A stretch of 64,000 nt of DNA, taken from the NCBI RefSeq assembly GCF_900093605.1, contig NZ_FLYE01000023.1:208224-272223 (forward strand), given 5' to 3'. Origin of the DNA: Candidatus Terasakiella magnetica (GTDB lineage Bacteria > Pseudomonadota > Alphaproteobacteria > Rhodospirillales > Terasakiellaceae). Shown here in pieces: positions 1 through 20,010 of this stretch (position 1 is the first letter of the stretch; the number at the start of each line of letters is the position of its first letter). The notes under the pieces were generated by a model that worked only from the letters and a program-made list of their open reading frames with translations, had not been told where the DNA came from and searched no databases. Position numbers and translations under genes: made by a program.

Positions 1-616
1 CCCTGAAATTTGGAAAGACCTAAATGAGGCAGGCATGGTGTCTGGTCATGCGTATGGTAAATCCTTGCGCACGGTAAAGACCTGTGTGGGCCAAGAATGG
101 TGCCGCTTTGGTACGCAACTGTCCATGGACTTGGGCGTGAAGCTTGAGAAAATGGCTTGGGGTTCCTACATGCCGCATAAATTTAAAATGGCGGTTTCCG
201 GTTGCCCACGCAACTGCGCAGAAGCCACCATTAAAGATTTTGGTGTGATCTGTGTGGATAGTGGCTATCAGCTTTCTGTTGCGGGTAATGGTGGTATCCA
301 TGTGCGCGCCAATGATGACCTTTGTTTGGTAAAAACCGAAGAAGAGGTTCTGGAATATTGTGGTGCTTACATCCAGCTTTATCGCGAAGAAGCACGTTAT
401 TTGGAACGCACAGCACCGTGGATTGAACGCGTCGGCCTTGAATATGTGAAGTCGATCGTTGTGGATGATGAAAAACGCCGCAAAGAACTTAACGCGCGCT
501 TCTTACACTCACAAACCTTCTGGCAGGATGACCCATGGGCAACCGCTGTTAATGAAGAGGCCGCAGGCCAGCAATTTAAACCATTGGCTGTTGTCACAGC
601 ACAAGCTGCAGAATAG
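1..616 (+). CDS. nirB: Nitrite reductase [NAD(P)H] large subunit, C-terminal part (5' truncated)
   Basis: This is the last ~204 residues of the cytoplasmic assimilatory nitrite reductase large subunit, which reduces nitrite to ammonium on a siroheme/[4Fe-4S] centre. The open frame runs off the left edge (first full codon at base 2). The visible part holds the siroheme/cluster cysteine motifs: TCVGQEWC near residues 24-31 and GCPRNCAEA near 65, the paired Cys motifs of sulfite/nitrite reductases. The FAD/NAD-binding half lies outside the window. The gene is followed after 11 bp by nirD and then nasA, the usual nitrate assimilation order. The truncation is caused by the window edge, not by mutation. 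Confidence 0.95.
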   Translation, partial: PEIWKDLNEAGMVSGHAYGKSLRTVKTCVGQEWCRFGTQLSMDLGVKLEKMAWGSYMPHKFKMAVSGCPRNCAEATIKDFGVICVDSGYQLSVAGNGGIHVRANDDLCLVKTEEEVLEYCGAYIQLYREEARYLERTAPWIERVGLEYVKSIVVDDEKRRKELNARFLHSQTFWQDDPWATAVNEEAAGQQFKPLAVVTAQAAE

Positions 617-6545: not shown

Positions 6546-7013
6546 TTAGTTCTGTTGCGGGGAAACCGTGACAATCAGATCTTTTTCGTTAGCATTGCCT
6601 TTTTCATCTTTGATGCGCATGCGAATGCGGTGACGCCCCACTGGAAAAGCGGCATCTTTCACATTAAGATGTGTGCCTTCAAGATATTCGCGGACCCGAT
6701 CGGTAATATCAAAATCAAAGAAACCCACAACAACGACTTTCAGGCTTTCCATATCCGGATTATGACCGCTTTGACCAGGCGTAAAAGCAACCGATATATC
6801 CACAGGCGGTGTCACGCTTGATAGAAATTTTGGATTGCTAACAAGGATTTTGGGACCAATACCTGTTTGGGCCGCCATGGGTTCCTGCATCGCAGGTGAT
6901 TTACCAATATATTCAGCTTCTTGCGCACTGAGCAGCCATTTAGCATGGGCGGATGGGCTTGTAAGGACAAGCGCCAGCCCGACAAAAAATGAAGAAATTA
7001 GTGGATATTTCAT
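6546..7013 (-). CDS. Small exported protein of unknown function
   Basis: A 155-residue protein with a clear Sec signal peptide (MKYPLISSFFVGLALVLTS, cleavage near SAHA-KW). The mature part is beta-rich in appearance, ends in a segment (about residues 75-150) that looks like an Ig-like/cadherin-type sandwich strand set, and has no cysteine. I do not recognise a named family. The ATG at 7013 is preceded by a GGGGAG ribosome site, whereas the longer frame from 7064 overlaps the previous gene. It is the last gene of the five-gene protease/lipoprotein operon, so a periplasmic accessory role is likely but unproven. Confidence 0.75.
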   Translation of the reverse strand: MKYPLISSFFVGLALVLTSPSAHAKWLLSAQEAEYIGKSPAMQEPMAAQTGIGPKILVSNPKFLSSVTPPVDISVAFTPGQSGHNPDMESLKVVVVGFFDFDITDRVREYLEGTHLNVKDAAFPVGRHRIRMRIKDEKGNANEKDLIVTVSPQQN

Positions 7014-7029
7014 CTCATATCTCCCCTGC

Positions 7030-7653
7030 TTAATTGATTTGTTTGCGTGCTTCTTGAATTTCACGCTCTAGGTCCTGAAAAGCTTTGGCAGAACGGATTT
7101 TTGCTTCAAGACGTGCGTTTTTCTTGATTTTATCCACCATGACACGATTGGCTTTGCCCAATGGGAAGCGGATCATGGCATAAACACGATATTGTGTACC
7201 CAGTGGTTTAACCTCAACTTTTTCACGCATAAAGCCTGAGAGATCGACTTCGGTAATAAGGTTTGAAGTGACACGTTCCACATCGCTGATTACTTGTGTG
7301 TCTTCATCGGTGCCACTTTCAGTGACAAACTCTTTCATTTTAGAGCTGATCTTGCCTTTCATGGCATCGGCAAGGGAACGTTTGGCATTGAGCATGGCTT
7401 TATCAACAGCGAGCTGAATGTCTGAAGAGGTCGAGGTGCCAACACCATAAGCGCTAATATCGTCTTTTGGTGGGTTGAGGTACCATGAGGGTAGCTCGTC
7501 AATTGTATCTTCAACATTTTCAGCTTTGGCTTCCATTTTTTGTTCATGGGCCCAAAGGGCGGCCTCAGGTGTGCCGGGCTCGGGCGTTGAACAAGCGCTT
7601 AGACCAAGGCTAATGGCAGTAAGAGCAAGTGAAGTCTGTTTGAATTTTAACAT
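7030..7653 (-). CDS. LPP20-family lipoprotein
   Basis: A 207-residue lipoprotein: signal peptide with lipobox LSAC (Cys21), then a domain resembling the LPP20/FlgT-N type (about residues 50-180: PSWYLNPPKDD, YGVGTS, then helix rich in Ala/Lys, YRVYAMIRFP). The C-terminus is a charged helix that may form a coiled coil. It likely sits in the outer membrane facing the periplasm. It is 1 bp from the upstream TPR lipoprotein gene and belongs to the same operon. LPP20 domains frequently occur beside CsgG-like and DUF4384 proteins, as seen here. Confidence 0.8.
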   Translation of the reverse strand: MLKFKQTSLALTAISLGLSACSTPEPGTPEAALWAHEQKMEAKAENVEDTIDELPSWYLNPPKDDISAYGVGTSTSSDIQLAVDKAMLNAKRSLADAMKGKISSKMKEFVTESGTDEDTQVISDVERVTSNLITEVDLSGFMREKVEVKPLGTQYRVYAMIRFPLGKANRVMVDKIKKNARLEAKIRSAKAFQDLEREIQEARKQIN

Positions 7654-7654
7654 G

Positions 7655-9058
7655 TTAGGTTTCCTTTTTTCCTAATTCGGCAATGGCCTCATTGAGCGTT
7701 TTAATTTCTCCTGATACGTCTACTCCTTGTGAAGAAAGATCGTTCAGGTCTGTCAGTGTTTTCTGGGCCTGTCCAAATCGCCCATTTTTGATATAGGCGA
7801 GCCCCGCGCCATAATAGGCATCTGCTGCATTTTCCAACTCGCCGGCATTTTGTAAGGTGACACCCATATTGTAATAGGCATATCCATTGGCAGGGTCCTG
7901 TTTGAGGGCCATTTCATAGGCCGCATAGGCTTTTTCAGGACGCCCTAATATGGAATTTACATATCCAATGCCATTGAGATATTCAGCATTCTTATTATTT
8001 ATCGCACTTGCCTTAAGGTAAGCTGACAAGGCATCGTCATAATGTGATGTCTTGCTTAACAATCGGCCTTGCAGGAAGTGGATGCTATCATCTTTTGGGT
8101 TTAGGCTGAGGGAGGCTTGAGTGGCTGAAATCGCCTCTGAATAATCCCCCGCATGGGCAAGATATTGGGCAAAATCATTGTGACGTGCCGGATTTTTCTC
8201 ATCGAGAGAAATAAGCTGTTCATAAAGGGTGAACCTTTCCCCAAAAGGAAAACGCTTTGTTGCCAAGGCTTCTTCCAAGGCGGCAATTTGGTCTGGCTTT
8301 TCTTTGGCTTGTAAGGTTTTAAGAAAGTCAGAAAGTGTTTCTTCCTTATAGCGGGTGAGAATGATCTTTTCTTCGACAATAGGCTCATCCAAAACCGCAA
8401 TATTATCATCAGGAATGGTACTGACCAGCCTGCGCGAGAGATCATCAATCAGGCGTAAGGTCTGTTCTTCTTCCATATTTGTGGCAGCATCTAAAATCCC
8501 CATGGCTAAACCAACGGGGGAAAGCGACAGCCCACCGCCATGGCTTTGGGCAACATGGTTGGCCTTCCACAGGATTTCCCCATCAGAAAGGCGCACCATT
8601 TCCATTTCAGCACCAACCGCCACACGGGAATAAAGACCAAAGAACTGGCTATCAAATTCAAGGATTTTACCACGGATGATGGCATCACAATTGAGCACAT
8701 TTTTCATGGCATCGAGCTTGTCCGCCTCTTTTTTATCAAGTTTATCAAGCAGGAAATCGACCCGGGGAAGCTCTATATCACGCTTTCCTTGGGGCGCAAG
8801 ATGGGCATAAAAAGCCTGACGCACAGCCTTGCTTTCATCAAAAGAGAGTGCCTCGTCGTCTTGAAGGTCGCGCTCATCGCTAAAAGGTAAAACCGCCACA
8901 CAATTTGGTGGGGATTTTTTATAGCTGTCAAATACCTTAAAACGTACTTGGTTAAGCGGATTAAGGCTCATCTCATCTTTGCCCTCATCCACATAAGATG
9001 GTGTTGTGCAGGCATTTAAAGTGATCAGGCAAACTGCTAAGGTGAGTATATGTTTCAT
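7655..9058 (-). CDS. Lipoprotein with CsgG/GNA1162-like and TPR domains
   Basis: A 467-residue lipoprotein (lipobox LNAC, Cys16). Residues ~50-215 resemble the CsgG/GNA1162 (DUF799) fold: VAVLPFSDE, CDAIIRGKI, and GEILWKANH before a conserved-looking Gly-rich turn. Residues ~270-450 are four to five TPR units (for example YLNGIGYVNSILGRPEKAY and AYYNMGVTLQNAGELENAA). Such proteins act as periplasm-facing outer-membrane scaffolds. The start overlaps the end of the DUF4384 gene by 4 bp (ATGA), so the two are translationally coupled. Function is inferred from domain types only. Confidence 0.8.
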   Translation of the reverse strand: MKHILTLAVCLITLNACTTPSYVDEGKDEMSLNPLNQVRFKVFDSYKKSPPNCVAVLPFSDERDLQDDEALSFDESKAVRQAFYAHLAPQGKRDIELPRVDFLLDKLDKKEADKLDAMKNVLNCDAIIRGKILEFDSQFFGLYSRVAVGAEMEMVRLSDGEILWKANHVAQSHGGGLSLSPVGLAMGILDAATNMEEEQTLRLIDDLSRRLVSTIPDDNIAVLDEPIVEEKIILTRYKEETLSDFLKTLQAKEKPDQIAALEEALATKRFPFGERFTLYEQLISLDEKNPARHNDFAQYLAHAGDYSEAISATQASLSLNPKDDSIHFLQGRLLSKTSHYDDALSAYLKASAINNKNAEYLNGIGYVNSILGRPEKAYAAYEMALKQDPANGYAYYNMGVTLQNAGELENAADAYYGAGLAYIKNGRFGQAQKTLTDLNDLSSQGVDVSGEIKTLNEAIAELGKKET

Positions 9059-9870
9059 AGGGAGCCTCCAAGAATGGTGTAGCCTTTTTTGATCAAACGA
9101 CTGTCTTTGCGCGGCAGTTCAAGCAGTTTTGAGCGAAGTTCGGGAAGGGAATAATGATCACGAAGGCGAATTGGTGAACGTGTTGCAACAACCATGAGAT
9201 ATTCATCCCAATGACGTTGCTTACCCGTGATCTTTGGCGGGGGGGCAAGCGACATGGCATAAGAATTCAGATGCATATGGCGCGGGATCGTATCTTTGTT
9301 TTTGAAATGGCTATCTGTATCAAAATCATTGGGGAAAATGCGCACAACGGGCTGGTCTGTTTCATAAGGTAGCCATTGAAAGACCTGAACATACATGGGC
9401 TGGCTGGGGGCCATTTTTAAAACAAGGTCTTCACCCGTTCGAAACATGGTTTGATTAAGCTCTACACCAAGGTCAAAATCCGGATCATTAAAACCTAAAT
9501 TCGTGGCAATATCGGCTTGTAGTGTGACGGTGCATTTCTGCACGTCATTGCCCATATCCTGCACGCTTGTCTGACGGTTTTTCAGGGAACGGATTTCACC
9601 ATCCACAAGGGACCATGTCAGGCGGTTAAGTTTACAATCTGATTTTTGGGCCACTTCGCTACAGACCATGAGGTCATCTGCCACAAGGCGCTCACCTGTT
9701 AATTTTTGCAAAGCGCGGCGTTTGGCTTTGGTTTCAGCATTTTTACAGGCTGTTTGCTGGGCTGTATCGGGGCCAAAAAAGCTGCTGGCACTTACATTGA
9801 CCCATTCGCTTAAGGCCGGGCTTGGTGCGCTTAGAAGGAAAAGGCACAAGGAAATGGCGAGCTTTTTCAT
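9055..9870 (-). CDS. Exported DUF4384-domain protein
   Basis: A 271-residue exported protein with a Sec signal peptide (cleavage near ALS-EW). The first half contains several cysteines (C42, C70, C79, C114 area) likely to form periplasmic disulfides. The second half (about 135-250) matches the DUF4384 pattern: MYVQVFQWL, then VVRIFPNDFD and a closing YLMVVATRSPI strand. DUF4384 proteins are repeatedly found next to caspase-like or trypsin-like proteases and CsgG-like lipoproteins, which fits the neighbours here. The gene overlaps both its upstream and downstream neighbours by 4 bp. Confidence 0.8.
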   Translation of the reverse strand: MKKLAISLCLFLLSAPSPALSEWVNVSASSFFGPDTAQQTACKNAETKAKRRALQKLTGERLVADDLMVCSEVAQKSDCKLNRLTWSLVDGEIRSLKNRQTSVQDMGNDVQKCTVTLQADIATNLGFNDPDFDLGVELNQTMFRTGEDLVLKMAPSQPMYVQVFQWLPYETDQPVVRIFPNDFDTDSHFKNKDTIPRHMHLNSYAMSLAPPPKITGKQRHWDEYLMVVATRSPIRLRDHYSLPELRSKLLELPRKDSRLIKKGYTILGGSL

Positions 9871-11366
9871 GACGCACTCCTTGAAGCGACAAGAACAACA
9901 CTGGGCAGCATGGTTTGGTACAGCTCCTCTAATGAGTTGATAACTTCCCTTGCTGGGGGCTGTGAAGAAGGCGGGCCCACCAGCTCTTGCACAGAGTTGG
10001 CTTTAATGGCTAAATTCATATCTTCAGCGAGATGACCGCGTTCTTCATAGACGCCCATTACATCAAGCTTTGCCACCGCAATCCCGATGAGTTCCCCGCG
10101 TTTATTGAAGATCGGTCCCCCACTGTTGCCTTTATTCATTTTTGAAGAAATCAGAAATGTGCGTTGATCATCGCCAAGGCCAGTGGCTTTACTGATAATG
10201 CCATCGGTTAAGGAAGGGGTGTTTTGCCCCAAAAGGTCCATTAAGGGAAAGCCCATAACAATCGCACCTGAGCCCGGTGTGGTGTTGGGGAGCTGGTGAA
10301 AGGGGATGGCATATTCTGCGCGAAAGGGCTGATCGGTCTTTAAGATCGCCAAATCATCTTTTTGAGAGACTTTATGAATGTGGGCCATCTTTAATTCGCC
10401 CAACCCATTGCGCACGGCAATCTTTTCATTGGGGGAGTTTAAGTGGTCGACCACATGTCTGTTTGTCACAATATATTGGCCTTGGCCGATGATAAAACCA
10501 CTTCCGGTTTTAAGGGCGGTTTGGCGTGAAAAGGGCAAAGGCGTTGGTTTGGGTAAGCTTTTATAACGGGCTTGTTTAACCTGTGGCAGTGGGCTTATGG
10601 CAACCGGTTTTACCTTTTGTGCTATGGGGGCAGGGGCATCATCTTTATGGGCTACCTGCGGTGTTGAAGGGTTTTGGTCGCCGTTTTCGTTATAAAGCCT
10701 GTGGGCAATTTTAAAGTAAGTCGCAGCTTTATCACCATGGCCCCATTGTTGATATATGTTACCCAACATCTGTGCGGTTTTTGCACTATCAGCATTAGAA
10801 AGTAAAAAACGCTCCAATATGCGCGCGGCTTCATTTAAGGCCTGTTGTTTGACGTTAAAAGACGCAAAGGTCAACACGACGCTTTCATGGTTTGGCGCAA
10901 GCTTGTAAAGCTTTTCAAGGCGCTGGCGGGCTTGGCCCACATGGCCTGAAATTTCATCAATGGAGGCAAGAATGAGCTCGGCCTCAATTTTATAGCCCCC
11001 TGAAAGATGAGCCATTTTTAAATGACGGCGGGCCTGATCCAGTTGACCAAGGGCTGTCTTGGCTTTAGCAAGCCCAAGTGAGATGCTCTCATCATTATCC
11101 AATATGTGAAACTGGGCATTCTCATAAATTTCCAAGGCGAGATCGGCTTGCCCGGTTTGCAGGTAGGCTTGTGCCAGCAAGAGGCTTTCTTGAATGTTTT
11201 TTGAGTTTGCAGTTTCTATAACGCGCTGGGGCTGGCCCGTTTTTAAAAAATGCTTAAACCGCACCAGATGGTCAGCTTCTTGGGCCTGTATCGGGCTGGC
11301 TGAAAATAAAGCCAACCCCGTGACACAAGCCACAATCTGTATGTTTGTTTTTAGTTTTTTGAACAT
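9867..11366 (-). CDS. Exported TPR-trypsin-like (S1C) serine protease
   Basis: A 499-residue exported protein. A signal peptide (cleavage near IQA-QE) is followed by TPR-like helical repeats (about 35-225), a Pro/Lys-rich linker (230-280) and a trypsin-like protease domain (285-460). The catalytic triad is visible: His304 in TNRHVVD, Asp338 in KDDLAIL and Ser415 in KGNSGGP. No PDZ domain is seen, so it is not a classic DegP. The ATG at 11366 was chosen; a TTG four codons earlier has no better ribosome site. It is the first gene of a five-gene operon and is preceded by an 11-bp direct repeat promoter (11399-11431). Confidence 0.88.
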   Translation of the reverse strand: MFKKLKTNIQIVACVTGLALFSASPIQAQEADHLVRFKHFLKTGQPQRVIETANSKNIQESLLLAQAYLQTGQADLALEIYENAQFHILDNDESISLGLAKAKTALGQLDQARRHLKMAHLSGGYKIEAELILASIDEISGHVGQARQRLEKLYKLAPNHESVVLTFASFNVKQQALNEAARILERFLLSNADSAKTAQMLGNIYQQWGHGDKAATYFKIAHRLYNENGDQNPSTPQVAHKDDAPAPIAQKVKPVAISPLPQVKQARYKSLPKPTPLPFSRQTALKTGSGFIIGQGQYIVTNRHVVDHLNSPNEKIAVRNGLGELKMAHIHKVSQKDDLAILKTDQPFRAEYAIPFHQLPNTTPGSGAIVMGFPLMDLLGQNTPSLTDGIISKATGLGDDQRTFLISSKMNKGNSGGPIFNKRGELIGIAVAKLDVMGVYEERGHLAEDMNLAIKANSVQELVGPPSSQPPAREVINSLEELYQTMLPSVVLVASRSAS

Positions 11367-11398
11367 AACCTCATCCAATGCGTTTTTAGCTTGGATGT

Positions 11399-11431
11399 AG
11401 GATGCCAGAGGAAGCTGACACTAAGCTGACA
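11399..11431 (-). promoter_or_regulatory. Direct-repeat activator site and promoter of the protease operon
   Basis: Read toward the gene, two perfect copies of TGTCAGCTT lie at 11431-11423 and 11420-11412, starting 11 bp apart. A weak -10 (CATCCT, 11404-11399) begins 16 nt after the start of the second copy. This is the same geometry as at four other sites in this block. Confidence 0.6.
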
Positions 11432-11440
11432 GGTGAGGGC

Positions 11441-12811
11441 TTATTTTATGTTTTTAGCAAATTTTACAGTAAAAATGGCCCCGCCTTCAGGGTGGTTATC
11501 CACATCAATGGAGGCACCATGAAGTTTGACGGTTTTAGCGACGATCGATAGGCCAAGGCCGGAGCCTTTTTGTGTGTCAGAACGATCTGCGCGCCAGAAG
11601 CGTTTAAACAGATTTTCTTTATCCCCACTGGCAATGCCCGGGCCATGATCGCGAATACTTAGGGATGGTCCCTTATCAAGGCTGAGCGTTACGGTGGAAC
11701 CTTTGGGGGTGTAGGTCAGAGCATTTTCCAACAGATTGCGGATCATGTGATAGATCGCATCATAATTGCCGGAAATAGGTTCAGGCGTGGCGTTTTCATC
11801 AATCTCCAACATCTTGCCCTGTTTTACAGCCAAGGGGGTGAGGAGGCTGATGACATCCTTGCTGGCCTCCATGAGGTCAACCTGATCATCAGCTGAAATG
11901 GTCAGGCTATCAAGCTGGGCTGCCTTGAGAAGCTGGGCGACCAAGCGGGTCATGACTTTTGTGTCTTTTTGCAGCAGTTTTGCAAGTTTTTGGTCTTCAA
12001 CACTTTCAATGCGGGCATTGAGTACCGCCAGTGGCGTGCGCAATTCATGGGCGGCATCCGCGGTAAAACGACGTTGCAGCTCAAAGCCACGCTCTAACCT
12101 TTCTAAGGCGTTGTTTACGGCTTGGACAAGGGGGAGAACCTCTGAGGGGACGTTTTTTTCAGGCAGGCGAATTTCAGTGTTTGAAGGGCCGATTTCCTGT
12201 GCTTTTTTTGAAACGTTATTGAGTGAGCGCATGCTTAAGCGCAAAATCAATGTGCTGCTGACCAGAAGCCCGATGAAAAAGAAAGGCAAGATCCAGCCGA
12301 TATTTTCGAAAAACTCATCAGCCAGCGTATCTGCCAAAATATCATAATGGCTTTCATCCTGCGCAACCTGAAGCCAGATGGAACGCGTGCCGATATCAAA
12401 CTGATAACTAGCACCAAAATAGGTCAGTTCCTTTTGGATATCTTCAAACTGAAAATATTGTGACTTTTTATGGTTGGGATCAAACGGATATAAAGGGAAA
12501 TCACGTTTGTTAGAGGAGAATAACAACGTGCCGTTTGGATCAGAAACCGTAAATAAATATATACCGTTTGCTTCACGGTAAGCCTGGGAAAGGCCATAGG
12601 GCAGGTCAAGCGTGAGCAGGTTGTTCTGGTCAGTTTTGAGGTGGCGGAAAATTTCATCAGCTTGAGTGCGCAATGTACCTTCGCGCAAATTATCACCAAC
12701 GGATTTATATTCGTTGTAAAGCGCCCCAACAGCCATGGCAAAAAACAGGATGACCAGTGCTGCTTGTGAAAGCAAAACATTACGTACCAAGGAAGGAGAT
12801 TTAGTCGTCAT
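11441..12811 (-). CDS. Two-component sensor histidine kinase, QseC/TctE-like
   Basis: A 456-residue inner-membrane kinase: TM1 (about 10-32), a ~140-residue periplasmic sensor region, TM2 (about 173-193), HAMP-like linker, HisKA with AHELRTPL (His255), and HATPase_c (N-box NLLENALTY, G1 DHGPGI, G2 GSGLGLSIV). The ATG at 12811 overlaps the end of the response regulator gene by 11 bp, and a longer in-frame start inside the regulator is unlikely. It pairs with the OmpR-type regulator just upstream. The periplasmic domain carries no recognised ligand motif. Its position in the middle of the repeat-marked regulon suggests that it is the sensor of that regulon. Confidence 0.9.
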   Translation of the reverse strand: MTTKSPSLVRNVLLSQAALVILFFAMAVGALYNEYKSVGDNLREGTLRTQADEIFRHLKTDQNNLLTLDLPYGLSQAYREANGIYLFTVSDPNGTLLFSSNKRDFPLYPFDPNHKKSQYFQFEDIQKELTYFGASYQFDIGTRSIWLQVAQDESHYDILADTLADEFFENIGWILPFFFIGLLVSSTLILRLSMRSLNNVSKKAQEIGPSNTEIRLPEKNVPSEVLPLVQAVNNALERLERGFELQRRFTADAAHELRTPLAVLNARIESVEDQKLAKLLQKDTKVMTRLVAQLLKAAQLDSLTISADDQVDLMEASKDVISLLTPLAVKQGKMLEIDENATPEPISGNYDAIYHMIRNLLENALTYTPKGSTVTLSLDKGPSLSIRDHGPGIASGDKENLFKRFWRADRSDTQKGSGLGLSIVAKTVKLHGASIDVDNHPEGGAIFTVKFAKNIK

Positions 12812-13484
12812 CTGAATTATCCGCCAAAATATATCCCACACCACGAATGGTATGTACGCTAACGTCTGCTTGAGTTTTATTCAATTTCTTTCTCAAGCGA
12901 GAGATATGGGCCTCAACTGAGTTTGACCCCACATCCTCATTAAAGCCATAAAGGCTTTCTTCAAGGGCTTGCTTTGAAACCACACGACCATAACGGCGCA
13001 TGAGTTCTTCTAACACATCAAGTTCCCGCCTTGCCAAAGCAACCACGTCACCTGCGATTTGAACTTCGCGCGAAACCGTATCAAACGTCAGATTACCGGC
13101 ACAAAGTTCCACCCCCAATGCGCCACCGGGACGGCGCAAAAGGGCGCGAATGCGTGCGATTAGTTCATCCATCTCAAAAGGTTTGAGGCAATAGTCATCA
13201 GCGCCAAGGTTTAACCCCTTAACCCGGTCTTCAAGACCGTCGCGTGCGGTCAAAATAAGCACAGGTGTCATGTTTTTCTTCGCCCTAAGCTGAGTGAGGA
13301 TATCTAGACCATCCCCATCAGGCAGGCCAAGGTCAAGCACGACACAGTCATAGCGTGTTGTTTCCAAAGCGCTGTGTGCGTCTTCAGCTTCATGAAAGGC
13401 GTCAATGGCAAAACCTTCTTTTTTGAGCCTTTCTTGCAAAAGGCTGCAAAGTTCGGGATTATCTTCCACGACCAACAATTTCAT
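12801..13484 (-). CDS. OmpR/PhoB-family response regulator (QseB/PmrA-like)
   Basis: A 227-residue regulator. The receiver domain (1-115) has acidic pocket EDN, phospho-acceptor Asp51 (VVLDLGLPD) and Lys in CLKPFEMDE. The winged-helix DNA-binding domain (about 125-222) ends with the typical VEAHISRLRKKL recognition helix and HTIRGVGYIL wing. Members of this family bind as dimers to direct repeats with 11-bp spacing. Such a repeat lies in front of this very gene (13520-13552) and in front of four further transcription units nearby, so autoregulation and control of the whole block are likely. The gene overlaps the kinase gene. Confidence 0.92.
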   Translation of the reverse strand: MKLLVVEDNPELCSLLQERLKKEGFAIDAFHEAEDAHSALETTRYDCVVLDLGLPDGDGLDILTQLRAKKNMTPVLILTARDGLEDRVKGLNLGADDYCLKPFEMDELIARIRALLRRPGGALGVELCAGNLTFDTVSREVQIAGDVVALARRELDVLEELMRRYGRVVSKQALEESLYGFNEDVGSNSVEAHISRLRKKLNKTQADVSVHTIRGVGYILADNSDDD

Positions 13485-13519
13485 CTGTTTAGACCTTCCT
13501 GTCCCAATTAAGTGACTTA

Positions 13520-13552
13520 ACCATAGGGACGAAACCTTGCGTCAAGCTGACA
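13520..13552 (-). promoter_or_regulatory. Direct-repeat activator site and promoter of the two-component operon
   Basis: Toward the gene: TGTCAGCTT at 13552-13544, a degenerate second copy CGCAAGGTT at 13541-13533 (start-to-start 11 bp), and a -10-like TATGGT at 13525-13520 beginning 16 nt after the start of the second copy. It lies between the chemoreceptor stop and the regulator start. Confidence 0.55.
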
Positions 13553-13553
13553 A

Positions 13554-15560
13554 TTATCCATTTTGCAATGCTTTGAGGAAATCATCCACACCTTTTGTCA
13601 GCTCGAGGGAAAGCTGGTTAATCTCTTCAGAGGCATTTAACGTGTTGTTTGCCATGTCACCCACATGGTCTGAGGCCTTAATTACATCTTCAACCGCATT
13701 AAGGGTGGTAACGGTTTGTGAGGAAGCCTCAGTCATATTAGCGGTGATATTATCGGTCTCTTTTGATTGTTCATTAACGGCTAATGCAATTTCAGAGGCA
13801 ATCTGGTTGGCCTCATCAATAGCGCCCCCCGCAGCTTGAACCGAGACAACCGCTGTTTGGGTTGCCGATTGAATATTGTTAATTTGCACAGAAATATCTT
13901 TGGTGGCCTGTGCGGTTTGGTTGGCAAGGTTTTTGACTTCTGAAGCAACAACCGCAAAACCTTTTCCTGCTTCTCCTGCACGTGCGGCCTCAATGGTGGC
14001 GTTTAAGGCAAGTAGGTTTGTCTGTTCTGCAATATCGGCAATCATAGAGGCTACTTCACCAATTTTCGTTGCAGCACTGGCAAGACCTTGAATTTCCTGA
14101 TCTGCAATTTGGGCACGCTCGGTTGCCTGTTTTGAAAATTGTGCTGAGCGATCTGTATTGCCGCGAATTTCATTAATGGAATGACTTAGAGAAGAGGCAC
14201 TGGTGCTGGCCTGATCTACACGCTCATTAGCCATTTGAGAACTTTCTACAACATTATTGGCTTGTGCAAGGCTCTGGTGAGAAGCTGAAGAAAGCGTTTG
14301 GGCGGTATCTTGTAGGTTCTCGGCAGCCAGAGACATACTATCCATGGCCCCTGTGACCGTGTTTCTAAAACGTTCAGCCATTTGGGCCATCATCTGTTTG
14401 TTTTCTTCTTCGGCCTGTCGTTTCACTTCTTCTTGTTGATGGCGCATATCTTCCATCTGTTGTGCATTATTCTGGAAAATAGAAAGGGCGCGCGACATTT
14501 CACCAATTTCGTTTTTAAGCTCTTGATCATCAATTTGAACATTACGTTCGCCTGATGAAATGCGCATGGTCGTTTGCACAAGCTGATTTAACGGTTTGGA
14601 GATAGTGCGCCCCGCAACTAGGCTGAGGATCACACAAAGACTGCCGCCAATACCGATGATGGCAAGGAAGATAGTACGCCCTTGTTGAGTACCGTCTTCA
14701 AAAGCATGGTCTGCCAATGTGCTTTTATGGGCAATGACCTTTTCCAGCCCATCAAGGGATTTGCGCGCAGGTTTGTAAAAGGTCTTAAACAGGCCAGCCT
14801 GTTCATGGCGTTTAATGTAGAGAGAGGCCATCTTGGTGAATTGCTCAAGATAATCATCCAAGGTTCTATTGAGTGTTTGTTTATCACTTTCTTCCAGGAA
14901 GTTTTCTTTGAGCAATATCTTGAGTTTAGCCACATGTGTGGACACTTCAGTGATATATTTACTGTCTTGGCGCGCAAGAAGTTCCATCTCCCCACGGCGG
15001 ATTTTGGCAATCACAGCAAATAAGGGGTCATCGGACTGACCAAGGCTTTCCATATGGTCTTCATTGCGCTCAAGGATTTCATTGCTCACCTTGGCTAAAT
15101 GTTTGGAAGCCGTGCGCGCAGCACCATAAAAACCGCTTTTTTTATCATAGCCGAGCGTTTTGTTGAGCCCGACAAAGCTATCCCAATGGCTGAAATATCC
15201 CGCCATTTTTTCTTCAATCACGTCAAGGGAGGCTTTTTCTTCCAGGCTATTGAGCTTTTGCGCTAAGGCAGTGATGAGCTTATTGACGTTGCGTTCCGTT
15301 TCGCGCTGTCTTTTTTCATATTTTTCTTTTGATTTAATGACATATTCTTTTTCCGTATAACGCGCGGTGAGCATATACCCACCTAAGGCTCTAATATCTT
15401 TTAAAGCCTCGTTATAAAGTGACTTTTCTTCATAGGTTTCTCTTTGATAGGCACTAAGTTGAAAATATGCCGTTCCTAAAGCAATAAAAGAAATCAGGAA
15501 GAAAACGGAAACCAGAACCAGTCGTTTCATCACGCTCATATGCATAAAAAGAGAAAGCAT
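13554..15560 (-). CDS. Methyl-accepting chemotaxis protein with HBM-like sensor
   Basis: A 668-residue chemoreceptor. TM1 is at about residues 13-33, followed by a long all-helical periplasmic sensor (about 35-280) resembling the helical bimodular (HBM) domain, TM2 (about 285-310), HAMP (about 310-365) and a cytoplasmic signalling hairpin with the conserved tip [21 protein letters not shown] receptors such as McpS sense organic acids. The ATG at 15560 has an AGGTGA ribosome site six bases ahead and is preferred to the GTG at 15569. It has its own repeat-type promoter at 15597-15629, which ties its expression to the same two-component system. Confidence 0.9.
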
Positions 15561-15596
15561 TTTTATCACCTAATAGAATAATCAATGTTAAGTGAA

Positions 15597-15629
15597 AATA
15601 TAAGGGATGAAACTTACAAGTATCTGACA
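15597..15629 (-). promoter_or_regulatory. Direct-repeat activator site and promoter of the chemoreceptor gene
   Basis: Toward the gene: TGTCAGATA at 15629-15621 and TGTAAGTTT at 15618-15610 (11 bp apart), then a good -10 TATATT at 15602-15597, beginning 16 nt after the start of the second half-site. A 5' leader of ~30 nt would precede the ATG at 15560. Confidence 0.6.
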
Positions 15630-15643
15630 AGAAGAGTTTTTCT

Positions 15644-16552
15644 CTATCCTAAATGTGTTTTCACACGGGTGTAGCGCCAGATGCCATCCGTATGGCGGCA
15701 AACATTTCCAAAGAAATTGCGTTGGAATTCCCCATAGGCAATAGATTGCTCGAAGGTTCGGCAAAAGAGGGCTCTATCGGTTCTAAAAGATTTGAGGGGT
15801 TTGATGGTGCTTTGGGCGCGTTTACCTTTGCCAAACCAGTTGACCCCCACGTTGCTGAGATTATGTTCCATTGCAAGTTGGAAGCTTTCCTGAAGAGATT
15901 TCTGATCTGTTGCAGAGAGAAAAGTTAGTGAGGGAATATAACTTGCCAGCTCAATCTTGTGGCTGGGGCGCGATTTGAACTGATCTTCGCGAAGTACATA
16001 GTGATTAATGGATGGGGCATAATAGAAAATACGTGTTTGGCGCAACCATGTACGATAAAAGCGATAACAGGAAATCTTCATGGTATCAAAAGTCCCTGCC
16101 GCAACCGTGATTTCATAGCTGCCATCAACTGTACAGTCCCAAGCTTGAACATATTCTTTTTCTTGCCCATCAAGTTTGTCAATAACGGTCCTTGTCATGG
16201 TGAAACGTTCATCATTGCCATGGTTTAAGGGGAACATCATATCGGGCTGTTCATGAATGAGGCCATGGGATTCTTTTTCATGGGTTTGCCAGTGCAGTGA
16301 GGGCAAAAGGAAATTGCGATAGGCCACAACTTCAGTTGCACTGCCAGCCTGCCATGTGATTTTTTCTCCATTGATCTGTTTAACTGTTTCAGAATAGCCG
16401 TTTGTGTAAATAAACGTATCACCCACATGATAGGTGGGTAAGGGTAAGGCGCTTAAAGAAGCCGTTTGCTTATAAGGCCCGTGGGAAGCACAAGCCGATA
16501 AGAAGAGGCTGAGGCCACATGAAAGCAGGAATGATGAGATAAGTTTTTTCAT
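15644..16552 (-). CDS. Lipoprotein of unknown function, partner of caspase-like gene
   Basis: A 302-residue lipoprotein with lipobox LSAC (Cys21). I do not recognise the family. The mature part is beta-rich: a segment with VGDTFIYTNG and later GSYEITVAAGTFDTMKISCYRFYRTW followed by FYYAPSINHYVLRED. This is reminiscent of the periplasmic DUF3108-like/LolA-type half-barrels that follow a 'T-x-x-V-x-A-G-x-F-x-T-x-x-I' pattern. The start overlaps the caspase-like gene stop by 4 bp, so the two proteins are probably made together and may interact in the periplasm. Confidence 0.7.
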   Translation of the reverse strand: MKKLISSFLLSCGLSLFLSACASHGPYKQTASLSALPLPTYHVGDTFIYTNGYSETVKQINGEKITWQAGSATEVVAYRNFLLPSLHWQTHEKESHGLIHEQPDMMFPLNHGNDERFTMTRTVIDKLDGQEKEYVQAWDCTVDGSYEITVAAGTFDTMKISCYRFYRTWLRQTRIFYYAPSINHYVLREDQFKSRPSHKIELASYIPSLTFLSATDQKSLQESFQLAMEHNLSNVGVNWFGKGKRAQSTIKPLKSFRTDRALFCRTFEQSIAYGEFQRNFFGNVCRHTDGIWRYTRVKTHLG

Positions 16553-17856
16553 GATTTTGCCTCGATAATCTGTACATGTTGTTCACGCCCAAAATAGCGC
16601 CGTGCCCAATAGGTTGTGGTTTCATCCAGATAGGTCTTAAGCTCCCCCAGAGAAACATTTTTATCTTGATTGCCATAAGGTGCACGATCCGCCTCCCCAC
16701 TAACGCCAAGGAGGAAAAATTTGCTAAAGAGGCTATGGGTGCCATCGGGTTCCCATGAGGCAATTTGTTGAGGTCCGCCTGCGGTAATCACGGTCAGGTT
16801 TTCAGGAACGCTAACATGGCGTGACTTGATAAAGACGGGAGAGGCCTTTTCAACGACTTGCCCGGTTTGACTGTTACCTGAAAAACAGGCTTCAAGAATG
16901 ACAGTACGTTTGCGCGCAGGAATGAGTGACAGGTTGCGATAAAGGGTTTCAATAGAAAAACCGTTTAGGGAAATGCGTGCCGCATCGGCATCACTGGGGA
17001 CAAGGTAACTCATGCCTGCCTTGGTATCTGGTGCCCCATGACCTGCATAAAAAACATAAACATTGGACCTGTTTGGTTTTACCCAATCAAAAAGCTGGGC
17101 CTGATGATTGTCTTTGGTGCCAAAAACACGGATCATTTGTGCTTGTGTCGCATCTTTTAAATGAATGATGTTTTTAGGGGCGACACCTAGAGTCTGTTCT
17201 GCATAAAGACGAAACCCTTTTGCATCGGCATAAGCTGGGCGCACATCGGGAATGTCTGTTGCATTTTTTGAATAATCCGCATTTGAAATGATGACGGCAA
17301 TATCATCAGGCTGGGCTTTACCTTTGGGGAAATCAGCAATGACGGGGATATCAGGGAAGTTTGATAGGGTTGGGCCTGCCGCAACTTGGTGGCTGCTTAT
17401 TTGTGGCGTGCTTGTCGCACTATAGCTGGGGGCCGGAATATTTAGCCCGGCATATGTTGTATTTTGCCACCTGTTGGCGAGGAATGTTTTTTCTTCTGCA
17501 TTTGAGAAAGAAGCACCTACTTGACGAGCTTCAATGAAGCCACGGGCTTCAAGATATTCATTTTCCATGGCGAAGAAATCTTCATCAAAACTTTCGCCAC
17601 CAGCACTGTCGCCGCCGCCATCACCACCAGAAGCGCCGCCATCGCCGCCACCGCTTCCGCCATCGCCGCCGCCGTCTCCGCCACCATCTCCGTCACCATC
17701 GCCGTCGCCATCACCATCGCCGTCCCCATCTCCATCACCACCATCCCCATCGCCAAAAGCCGGTGAGATTAGGTTTAGGTCTTGCTGAGAAGTGAAGCAG
17801 ACAAGGCTTATGCCAAGAAACAAGAAGAGGAAGCTACGGTGCGAGATTTTTTTCAT
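16549..17856 (-). CDS. Exported caspase-like (C14) protein with Gly-Asp repeat
   Basis: A 435-residue protein with an N-terminal signal peptide or signal anchor (about residues 8-24). A low-complexity Gly/Asp tract with some Ser follows at about 35-85. The caspase-like p20 fold spans about 183-345: beta strand DIAVIISNADY, catalytic His273 in VFYAGHGAP and catalytic Cys324 in ILEACFSGNS. Both dyad residues are intact. The C-terminal ~90 residues include a p10-like part (SLFSKFFLLGVSG). Bacterial proteins of this class are often called orthocaspases or metacaspase-like. Export, and the repeat that could bind calcium or act as a flexible linker, are unusual. It heads a two-gene operon with its own repeat-type promoter. 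Confidence 0.87.
   Translation of the reverse strand: MKKISHRSFLFLFLGISLVCFTSQQDLNLISPAFGDGDGGDGDGDGDGDGDGDGDGDGGGDGGGDGGSGGGDGGASGGDGGGDSAGGESFDEDFFAMENEYLEARGFIEARQVGASFSNAEEKTFLANRWQNTTYAGLNIPAPSYSATSTPQISSHQVAAGPTLSNFPDIPVIADFPKGKAQPDDIAVIISNADYSKNATDIPDVRPAYADAKGFRLYAEQTLGVAPKNIIHLKDATQAQMIRVFGTKDNHQAQLFDWVKPNRSNVYVFYAGHGAPDTKAGMSYLVPSDADAARISLNGFSIETLYRNLSLIPARKRTVILEACFSGNSQTGQVVEKASPVFIKSRHVSVPENLTVITAGGPQQIASWEPDGTHSLFSKFFLLGVSGEADRAPYGNQDKNVSLGELKTYLDETTTYWARRYFGREQHVQIIEAKS
17663..17756 (-). repeat. Hexanucleotide-type GGNGAY repeat coding for poly(Gly-Asp)
   Basis: An imperfect tandem of six-base units GGNGAY (Gly-Asp), grading into GGNGGN units toward the 3' side of the gene. 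It encodes the Gly/Asp tract of the caspase-like protein. Third positions vary, so the peptide repeat is conserved more strictly than the DNA, which suggests selection on protein sequence. Confidence 0.75.
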
Positions 17857-17900
17857 ATCGTTGTCAGACTATTGTGTGGTTTCATATCAAACTGAAAACA

Positions 17901-17945
17901 ACCCTATAGAGCCAAGCTTACAAGAAGCTGACATGAAGTCTGACA
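17901..17945 (-). promoter_or_regulatory. Triple-repeat activator site and promoter of the caspase operon
   Basis: Toward the gene: TGTCAGACT (17945-17937), TGTCAGCTT (17933-17925) and TGTAAGCTT (17922-17914). Starts are 12 and 11 bp apart. A -10-like TAGGGT (17906-17901) starts 16 nt after the start of the last copy. The distal copy partly forms an inverted repeat (CTGACA GCT TGTCAG) with the divergent cytochrome promoter. Confidence 0.6.
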
Positions 17946-17948
17946 GCT

Positions 17949-17981
17949 TGTCAGTTTCCTGTAAGCTCAGGGGAATATAAA
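17949..17981 (+). promoter_or_regulatory. Direct-repeat activator site and promoter of the cytochrome operon
   Basis: TGTCAGTTT (17949-17957) and TGTAAGCTC (17960-17968) lie 11 bp apart and are followed by a strong -10 TATAAA (17976-17981), again 16 nt from the start of the second copy. It drives the plus-strand cytochrome b/SHP/DHC genes and faces away from the caspase promoter. Confidence 0.65.
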
Positions 17982-18010
17982 GCATCAGGATAAATAAACG
18001 GGTTCCTGTT

Positions 18011-19114
18011 ATGCAGAACGTCACGACAATTTGGGATATGCCTGTGCGCCTTTTTCATTGGGCGCTGGTTATCTGTGTTCTCATCACATTATATACGGGT
18101 TTTTTAGGTGAGGAATGGCTGCTCAACTGGCATGTGAGTGCGGGCTATCTCATTGCGGTGTTTATGGTCTTTCGCCTGTTCTGGGGCTTTATGGGATCGC
18201 GCTATAGCCGTTTTAGCAGTTTTAAACCCTCGCTGAGTAAAGCATGGGTGTATGTACAAAACTACCGCAAGGGCCGTGGTGATCCTTATGTTGGGCACAA
18301 TCCGGCAGGAGCTTTTTTTGTATATTTCGTTATTGGGCTTCTTGTGATGTTGAGCCTATCGGGTTTTATCCTTTTAGGCGGGGTTGAAAAACAAGGTGTC
18401 CTTGCGCCGTATGTGAGCTTTGCGACGGGGCTTTCCTTTAAAGTAATCCATGAAGCGCTTGGATTTGCCCTGCTGGGCTTGATCCTCCTTCACCTGCTTG
18501 GCGTGCTTGTGCATGAGCTAAAGGGGGAGAAGCTGGTTCTCTCCATGATCCATGGTCAAAAATCGGATGTGCCTGAAGAAAAAAGTGATGAGGGGGCTTT
18601 AAGGTTTCTTTTGTTCTGGTGCGTGCTTCCTGTTTTTGTGTTGCTTGCCCTTTATTTGTTTAACCAGCCCTTTCAACAGACTTTATCGACAAGCCGCATC
18701 TATGAAAATGAATGCGGAGATTGCCATCATGCGTTTCATCCAAGTTTGCTGCCACAAGAAAGCTGGGAGCATATTATGGCAGGTCTGGACGACCATTTTG
18801 GAGAAGATGCAACGCTGGATGAGGGCTCATTCCTTGTTATTCAAGACTATTTAAAGGCAAATAATGCATGGAAGTGGGATACGGAAGCGGCGAATAATTT
18901 GCGCCTTGACCTCTTTGAACAACCTGCTCGCATTACAGCTTCACCCTTTTGGCGTTATCGCCATGAAGCAATTGCTGAAGAATTCTTTTCGCATAAAAAA
19001 ATTGAGTCAAAAACAAACTGTGCAGGCTGCCACCAAGATGCGCTTGTGGGCACTTTTTACGACCAGAATATCAACCTGCCTGACGTTGTGAAAAAAGGAA
19101 AATCAAATGAATAA
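18011..19114 (+). CDS. Cytochrome b561 fused to diheme cytochrome c domain
   Basis: A 367-residue membrane protein. The first ~190 residues form a four-helix cytochrome b561 (Ni/Fe-hydrogenase B-type) domain starting WDMPVRLFHW with candidate heme b histidines (His16 and others such as those in FKVIHEAL and LLHLLGVLVHE). A further TM helix (about 197-218) leads to a periplasmic diheme domain with CGDCH (about 236-240) and CAGCH (about 337-341). This C-terminal part is similar to the stand-alone diheme cytochrome encoded two genes later (both carry ECGDCH, LLP-SW--IM and HFGEDA). It probably passes electrons from the quinone pool or another donor to SHP. It overlaps the next gene by 8 bp. Confidence 0.88.
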   Translation: MQNVTTIWDMPVRLFHWALVICVLITLYTGFLGEEWLLNWHVSAGYLIAVFMVFRLFWGFMGSRYSRFSSFKPSLSKAWVYVQNYRKGRGDPYVGHNPAGAFFVYFVIGLLVMLSLSGFILLGGVEKQGVLAPYVSFATGLSFKVIHEALGFALLGLILLHLLGVLVHELKGEKLVLSMIHGQKSDVPEEKSDEGALRFLLFWCVLPVFVLLALYLFNQPFQQTLSTSRIYENECGDCHHAFHPSLLPQESWEHIMAGLDDHFGEDATLDEGSFLVIQDYLKANNAWKWDTEAANNLRLDLFEQPARITASPFWRYRHEAIAEEFFSHKKIESKTNCAGCHQDALVGTFYDQNINLPDVVKKGKSNE

Positions 19115-19514
19115 AATTATAATTACCCTCGTGATGGGTATGAGTTTTGCCCTGTCTTCAATGGCGGGTGCATCACCTGTATTGGAAAAACTCAAAATGA
19201 AGGCCGAGCAAGAAAACGCCTCTTTTCAGGGCTTTGATGCGCAAAGGGGTAAGGTGTTGTTTGAAACAAAATTTGGTTTGGGAAAGGCTGAAACACCTTC
19301 TTGCACCACGTGCCATGGTTCAAGCCCTTTTACACAAGGGCTAACACGTGCTGGCAAGGTGATTGAGCCAATGGCCAGCTCAAAAACACCTGCGCGTTAT
19401 ATGGACCAGCGCAAGGTGGATAAATGGTTCAGACGTAACTGTAACTCGGTTCTTAATCGTGAATGTAGCCTTCAGGAAAAAGGTGATTTCCTGACTTATA
19501 TGATGTCGCAATAA
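19107..19514 (+). CDS. shp: SHP-type oxygen-binding monoheme cytochrome c (DUF1924)
   Basis: A 135-residue periplasmic cytochrome with a signal peptide (cleavage near MAGA-SP) and one c-heme site CTTCH (66-70). The C-terminal RNCNSVLNREC segment (110-120) matches the DUF1924/Sphaeroides heme protein pattern. There an Asn supplies the sixth heme ligand, leaves on reduction and permits O2 binding; the adjacent cysteines (Cys112 and Cys120) can form a disulfide. Counting from a mature start near residue 24, Asn111 falls at about position 88, the ligand number known for Rhodobacter SHP; no alignment was run. The partners cytochrome b and DHC flank it, which is the classical SHP operon. Confidence 0.87.
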   Translation: MNKIIITLVMGMSFALSSMAGASPVLEKLKMKAEQENASFQGFDAQRGKVLFETKFGLGKAETPSCTTCHGSSPFTQGLTRAGKVIEPMASSKTPARYMDQRKVDKWFRRNCNSVLNRECSLQEKGDFLTYMMSQ

Positions 19515-19533
19515 AAAAGAGAAAGTGAAGAAA

Positions 19534-20010
19534 ATGAAAAAAGTTTTATTGCCTGTAATGGCCCTGATGCTCAGCGCAGTCCCTGCATGGGCTGATAGTG
19601 ATAATGTTCCTGTAATTAAAGACAGAGTTGTAAAGCAGGAATGTGGGGATTGTCATATTGCTTTTCAGCCCCAGCTTTTACCAAAGGCCTCATGGCAGAG
19701 AATTATGTCTGATCTGCCTAATCATTTTGGTGAAGATGCTTCGCTTGAAAAAGATATCGAAAAGCATATTGAGACTTATTTGGTTGAAAATGCAGCCGAT
19801 GCAGGCACGTTTTCCCGTTTTTGGCGCTCATCACGTTTTGATAATGTGAAAGGTGATAACCCCAGCCTGCGTATTACCCAAACATCCCATTGGGTGCATG
19901 AGCATGAAGAAGAGGATGAAATCACGCCACAACGTTGGGCCAAGGCCAAGTCAAAAGCAAATTGCCAAGCGTGTCATAATGAAGCTGATAAAGGCTATTA
20001 CGATGATTAG
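19534..20010 (+). CDS. dhc: Periplasmic diheme cytochrome c (DHC)
   Basis: A 158-residue exported diheme cytochrome, known in Rhodobacter as the electron donor partner of SHP. The signal peptide ends near AWA-DS. Heme motifs are CGDCH (37-41) and CQACH near the C-terminus. The start is either this ATG or a GTG three codons upstream (19525); the ribosome site is weak for both. The domain is paralogous to the C-terminal half of the cytochrome b561 fusion in the same operon. The gene ends 3 bp before the stop of a convergent hybrid kinase. Confidence 0.88.
   Translation: MKKVLLPVMALMLSAVPAWADSDNVPVIKDRVVKQECGDCHIAFQPQLLPKASWQRIMSDLPNHFGEDASLEKDIEKHIETYLVENAADAGTFSRFWRSSRFDNVKGDNPSLRITQTSHWVHEHEEEDEITPQRWAKAKSKANCQACHNEADKGYYDD

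Follow-up and report, generated by a model that had tools for sequence, protein, structure and literature searches.

Response regulators of the PmrA/QseB type act on operators that are built as direct repeats with a period of ~11 bp, with half-sites of the CTTAAG type. Two-component genes of this kind also stand beside operons for the heme protein SHP. In the excerpted parts of Meyer et al. (2010, PMC2909971), most SHP operons are described as adjoining sensor kinase and response regulator genes, the pairs are inferred to regulate SHP, and the kinases are sorted into the types SK1, SK2 and SK3, of which SK2 is related to QseC. The SK1 kinases are described as showing SGVYWQ and RSRSLWD, with variations, in their periplasmic domain, and SHP as a protein of poorly known physiological role.

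The DNA analysed here, a stretch of 64,000 nucleotides from Candidatus Terasakiella magnetica (G000:C22:208224-272223, hereafter the window), contains a 13.5-kb gene cluster (6546-20010), the island, which can be divided by gene order and spacing into five transcription units with presumed operon limits (Table 1). The genes for CytB, SHP and a diheme cytochrome c stand together in one of these units, as is typical of an SHP operon; DUF1924 and the structure 1dw0, both matched by the second of its products, we take to denote SHP. The island resembles the SHP operons in the excerpts of PMC2909971 in having CytB/mDHC, SHP and sDHC beside a kinase/regulator pair, and it differs from them in that the link between the two is an identifiable predicted operator, which also covers the caspase, the protease operon and the chemoreceptor. 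For the idea put forward in those excerpts of PMC2909971, that kinase/regulator pairs regulate SHP, the island would provide a concrete operator.

Table 1. Genes of the island, its predicted operators and presumed Pho boxes of the same genome. Positions refer to the window unless a locus is named; ranks are those of the matrix built from distant relatives.
Feature	Position	Strand	Remarks
Small protein without Pfam match	6546..7064	(-)	Presumed last gene of operon A
Lipoprotein-like protein	7030..7653	(-)	Presumed operon A; weak LPP20 match below cut-off
TPR protein	7655..9058	(-)	Presumed operon A; weak GNA1162-like match
DUF4384 protein	9055..9870	(-)	Presumed operon A
TPR and trypsin-like serine protease	9867..11366	(-)	First gene of presumed operon A
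Operator A (predicted)	11412..11431	(-)	TGTCAGCTTAGTGTCAGCTT; -10 CATCCT at 11399-11404; upstream of protease operon; rank 1 of 127,962; conserved in G005
Sensor histidine kinase (HAMP, HisKA, HATPase_c)	11441..12811	(-)	Overlaps regulator gene; nearest solved kinase core QseC
Response regulator, OmpR/PhoB-type	12801..13484	(-)	Presumed binder of the five operators; nearest PmrA/TctD/QseB models, below cut-offs
Operator B (predicted)	13533..13552	(-)	TGTCAGCTTGACGCAAGGTT; -10 TATGGT at 13520-13525; upstream of response regulator (putative autoregulation); rank 14; G005 counterpart scores higher
Methyl-accepting chemoreceptor	13554..15569	(-)	Likelier start ATG 15560 behind AGGTG (by eye)
Operator C (predicted)	15610..15629	(-)	TGTCAGATACTTGTAAGTTT; -10 TATATT at 15597-15602; upstream of chemoreceptor; rank 3; conserved in G005
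Lipoprotein-like protein	15644..16552	(-)	Second gene of presumed operon D; weak 17kDa_Anti_2 match below cut-off
Caspase (Peptidase_C14)	16549..17856	(-)	First gene of presumed operon D; signal-like N-terminus (by eye), Asp/Gly-rich tract
Operator D (predicted)	17914..17933	(-)	TGTCAGCTTCTTGTAAGCTT; -10 TAGGGT at 17901-17906; upstream of caspase operon; 0 mismatches to pattern; rank 2; conserved in G005
Operator E (predicted)	17949..17968	(+)	TGTCAGTTTCCTGTAAGCTC; -10 TATAAA at 17976-17981; upstream of cytochrome operon, divergent to D; rank 4
Cytochrome b561 fused to diheme cytochrome c (CytB/mDHC type)	18011..19114	(+)	First gene of presumed operon E
SHP-type heme protein (DUF1924)	19107..19514	(+)	Best solved match 1dw0, listed as cytochrome c
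Soluble diheme cytochrome c	19525..20010	(+)	Best solved match 2fw5, DHC
Presumed own Pho boxes before pstS (three half-sites) and phoR	L172:1345-1380 and 168-185		TGTMA[T/C] repeats

The five sites consist of paired half-sites of the form TGTCAGnTnnnTGT(C/A)AGnTT, the starts of which lie 11 bp apart, and can be summarised in the readable consensus TGTCAGGTnnnTGTCAGCTT. Position 6 of the half-site is G in ten out of ten cases, and site B, in which the proximal half (CGCAAGGTT) is degenerate, is the loosest of the set. An earlier note on this DNA had listed these pairs together with a -10-like hexamer 16 nt after the start of each proximal half-site, and both the pairs and the distance have been read at all five promoters; of the third copy listed at D, the extra half-site itself is present (17937-17945), but its start is 12 bp from that of its neighbour and not 11 bp. 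The start codon used follows 33-50 nt from the -10-like hexamer in the five promoters. In their head-to-tail half-sites ~11 bp apart and their fixed distance to the -10, the five sites agree, at the level of the sequence, with operators of the OmpR/PhoB family. At a distance of 17 bp from the -10, where AGCTTA, AGCTTG, AGATAC, AGCTTC and AGTTTC are found, no -35 hexamer has been recognisable at any of the five promoters, and this placement would be as at activator-dependent promoters of the regulator family. PhoB sites show the same geometry relative to their promoters.

We consider it probable that the response regulator of the island uses the five sites as its operators and so activates all five units; the operon limits, the binding by the local regulator and an activating rather than repressing role are all predicted. 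According to this model, the neighbouring kinase would phosphorylate the regulator encoded at 12801-13484, which would most likely bind as a dimer to the two head-to-tail half-sites, both of them facing the same side of the helix. If the -10 hexamer occupies -12 to -7, the repeats would span about -39 to -20, where a -35 element would be. From there the regulator would recruit RNA polymerase to the -10 at the fixed distance. The units switched on in this way would be the regulator-kinase operon itself, the chemoreceptor gene, the protease/DUF4384/lipoprotein and caspase operons and, in divergent orientation, CytB/DHC-SHP-DHC. A protein bound at sites that cover the spacer and the -35 region could also block the polymerase, and QseB-type regulators have been reported to repress when unphosphorylated, so that the local regulator might act at the same operators mainly as a repressor, in its unphosphorylated form or in dual use, and keep the island off. 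We regard this as unlikely, as no -35 hexamer can be recognised 17 bp away from the -10, which points to activator-dependent promoters, and as the 16-nt distance preferred across families (see below) fits a contact with the polymerase better than simple blocking.

The paired arrangement, and not the half-site as such, has been found to stand out from chance. Taken singly, half-sites are no more frequent in the window than in shuffles (343 vs 343.4 expected), and the paired pattern with up to three mismatches occurs seven times against an expectation of 0.68, a number that none of 100 shuffles has reached. Throughout the genome (3.68 Mb), all four places with at most one mismatch lie in the island, and five of the six places with at most two mismatches are island sites, the sixth (C11:21344) being located inside an ABC-transporter gene; the pattern of the scan was written from the island sites, and the informative part is therefore the scarcity of other places. 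At up to three mismatches 47 places are opposed by 34 for a reversed control, so that the signal ends there, and YAnnnT at +16 has been absent from all 24 of the 41 three-mismatch places that were inspected for it. Hundreds of random hits in the genome would, according to the earlier note, have refuted its proposal; within two mismatches a single place outside the island has turned up.

The regulator combines the domains Response_reg (PF00072, 101 bits) and Trans_reg_C (PF00486, 76.4 bits), as is characteristic of the OmpR/PhoB family, and stays below the curated cut-offs of the equivalog models for PmrA (221.1 of 330 bits), TctD (205 of 337) and QseB (196.1 of 345). It probably works like PmrA, TctD, QseB and PhoB but, owing to these scores, is filed as none of them. 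The PmrA, TctD and QseB systems, with the kinases PmrB and QseC, share with it the receiver plus Trans_reg_C and provide its best NCBIfam models, and they differ from it in their target genes and in the half-site, which reads TGTMAGnTT in the island. For the kinase (searched as 11441-12814, which starts one codon before the likely ATG at 12811) the best NCBIfam model has been that of the heavy-metal sensor subfamily, below its cut-off; the NCBIfam QseC model gives 156.6 bits at a cut-off of 475, and QseC is the best solved match for the kinase core only. The periplasmic part of the kinase has given no Pfam match, and by eye the SK1 motifs are absent in their exact forms from the translation of the kinase, with a loosely similar stretch, GIYLFTVSDPNG, being present. 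The kinase frames are shorter in G003, a genome of the same genus (362 aa), and in the loci L077 and L090 of family f21 (304 aa), so that the input may not be the same wherever the operator is kept.

The island sites agree with PhoB boxes, as given in the excerpts of PMC10294691, in having a TGT(C/A)A core, in being direct repeats and in lying upstream of the -10; in those excerpts, the E. coli Pho box at phoA reads TGTCATAAAGTTGTCACG and a few boxes carry G at position 6, e.g., TGTCAGGCCGCTGTCATC in gloC. One may therefore ask whether they are Pho boxes to which PhoB binds, with the island answering to phosphate starvation, a possibility the earlier note had itself named. The presumed Pho boxes of the genome itself, CTGTCACaaaaGTGTAAT before phoR and TGTCATcaaagTGTAACattgaTGTCAT before pstS (the former gene named by eye, the latter a TIGR02136 match below its cut-off), have T or C at position 6 in five of five half-sites, against G in ten of ten in the island, and the island sites further differ in their CTT-like tail and in tracking another regulator gene. 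The island sites thus read TGTMAG where the genome's own boxes read TGTMA[T/C], and do not match them as members of a PhoB regulon would; before a second PstS-like gene (L171), no such Pho box has been found in the stretch examined. A loose pattern, CTGTCATNNNNCTGTCAT, has been rejected as uninformative at three mismatches (369 matches vs 119 for the control). The local regulator reaches 163.9 bits with the PhoB model, the cut-off of which is 296.2, and the presumed own PhoB (L003, assigned by position) carries VRTVDVHIRRLRKAL in place of the SNSVEAHISRLRKKL of the local regulator, which would be compatible with a different base preference. Across genomes the sites follow the local regulator, and in distant families they stand near its gene. 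Based on the position-6 difference, this co-occurrence and this placement, the local regulator is favoured over PhoB, and we consider control by phosphate improbable; some cross-binding of PhoB at the island sites may occur, given that some E. coli boxes have G at position 6.

Operators of the local regulator would be expected to persist in relatives, which the earlier note had made a touchstone of its proposal. In G005, a genome of the same genus, the regulator is 92% identical and the island is colinear at ~74% DNA identity, and the four shared promoters keep the repeat together with a -10-like hexamer at +16. With a looser pattern and at most one mismatch, all four matches of the own genome and all four of G005 lie inside the island. 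Within the 20 kb examined, the cytochrome operon is absent from the G005 island; a hypF/hydrogenase-like cluster (named by eye, L085:14763-19527) occupies its place. In G003 (68%), the 20-kb locus has its two best-scoring places before a cytochrome b-regulator-kinase operon, where the site is comparable to operator E, and directly behind the kinase. All copies in the island are crowded within 6.6 kb and site B is degenerate, so the likeness might have been inherited by local promoter duplication and serve no function at present in some of the units. By eye, the sequences that flank the five sites look unrelated, and G005 keeps repeat and -10 in four diverged promoters, which makes such an origin highly improbable.

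At E<=1e-60 the regulator has given 58 matches in 54 of 150 genomes, the own genome included, and 40 loci have been compared, i.e., the own locus, two of the same genus and the best 37 of 55 matches outside the genus. A de novo search for 6+6 dyads, in which the window motif was not used, has yielded the dyad TCAGGT-N5-TCAGCT in 10 of the 37 loci outside the genus, which belong to families f21 and f27; one dyad is common to 11 loci, and the remaining top dyads look GC-rich or coding. A matrix of eight of these ten sites (two near-duplicates were left out) ranks A, D, C and E first to fourth among the 127,962 positions of the window and B 14th. Conversely, with a matrix built from the sites of the own genome and G005, 16 of the 37 distant loci show a place that exceeds the 95% null, 14 of them one above the 99% value, and the other 21 show none, several distant loci being close kin, so that these counts are not independent events. 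The operator appears to belong to a group of regulators that occurs in several families of the order. Beyond G005, the repeats are conserved behind the regulator and kinase genes in some of the distant families.

Across families, a distance of 16 nt to the -10 is preferred. Of 44 intergenic-like sites in the compared loci (open frame <=140 codons, duplicates removed), 19 have YAnnnT at +16, against 0-8 at 19 other offsets, as do 4 of 25 genic-like sites; the own genome and G005 supply eight of the 44, seven of them positive, which leaves 12 of 36 elsewhere. No -10-like hexamer stands at +16 in four f27 loci whose site is good (L084, L098, L099 and L101). Three others of this family, L068, L073 and L074, carry a CGTCAGG variant of the operator ~3.3 kb behind the start of the regulator, with TAGATT, TAGCAT and TACCCT at +16.

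The sites also follow the regulator gene through the genomes. The pattern employed, TGTCAGNTNNNTGTMAGNTT with at most one mismatch, had been widened after sites were seen in some of these loci; in the 150 genomes it matches 99 places, compared to 16 for the reversed control. The 54 regulator-positive genomes hold 75 of these matches (1.39 each) and the 96 negative genomes 24 (0.25 each), the reversed control giving 8 and 8. At least one match occurs in 31 of the 54 positive and in 19 of the 96 negative genomes (Fisher p 4.6e-6, or 8.6e-6 without the own genome, the genomes being related and p ignoring their kinship).

An autoregulated local regulon of five units, as proposed in the earlier note, is well supported as a prediction from the sequence by the sites, their spacing, their near-exclusivity to the island, their conservation and their co-occurrence with the regulator. 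Autoregulation would rest on B, the weakest of the five sites, and the evidence for it is confined to this genus: of the two best places in each of the 37 distant loci, not one that exceeds the null precedes the regulator. The predicted switch would tie an unusual cargo to a known kind of two-component operator. The titles and abstract beginnings of the literature searched have contained no description of the island operator or of a caspase operon under such a regulator, and the regulation of bacterial caspases is, to our knowledge, poorly known. The shared operator would place the caspase operon, the SHP chain, the protease operon and the chemoreceptor under one predicted switch, which makes a common function testable for all of them together.

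Tentatively, one may picture the island as a self-contained and self-wired module, with one operator before each unit and next to none in the rest of the genome. The two-component system, which is deeply conserved and in several distant genomes has its site just behind the kinase and before a small secreted protein, could have been given new cargo in this genus, namely a caspase and a protease set, both secreted, a private chemoreceptor and a cytochrome chain that binds O2/NO; the whole might be deployed together against envelope or redox stress, with the activity of the caspase placed directly under two-component control. Homologues of the caspase occur in 25 of the 150 genomes (the own genome and G005 included) and those of the lipoprotein in 33, and a site with at most one mismatch has been found near such homologues (20 loci each, 1.5-kb flanks) only in the own genome and G005; L191 and L201 in the same set have a two-mismatch place each. 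The recruitment of the caspase/lipoprotein cargo has accordingly been seen only in these two genomes among the 20 loci each.

Several observations concern the caspase and the distant targets. The Asp/Gly-rich tract of the caspase consists of simple repeats after the N-terminus (17600-17750 of the window). The own genome encodes a second caspase homologue (G000:C47:118061-118792, 45% identical), and places that score similarly to it exist in the other five genomes of the genus, the close relatives of the island caspase being those of the own genome and G005 (with a 58% one in G002). The usual target in f21 loci is a small secreted protein without Pfam match directly behind the kinase. A family of such proteins (..FLQLEITSACT..) follows the kinase-adjacent site in L095:11508-11900, L135:1541-1900 and L111:621-1391; the related-looking region in L111 is fused to a domain like the L124 protein, and L124 also has a site. 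CheY-like receiver proteins with a similar N-terminus follow such sites in L146, L134, L125 and L110, with YAnnnT at +16 in L146, L134 and L110.
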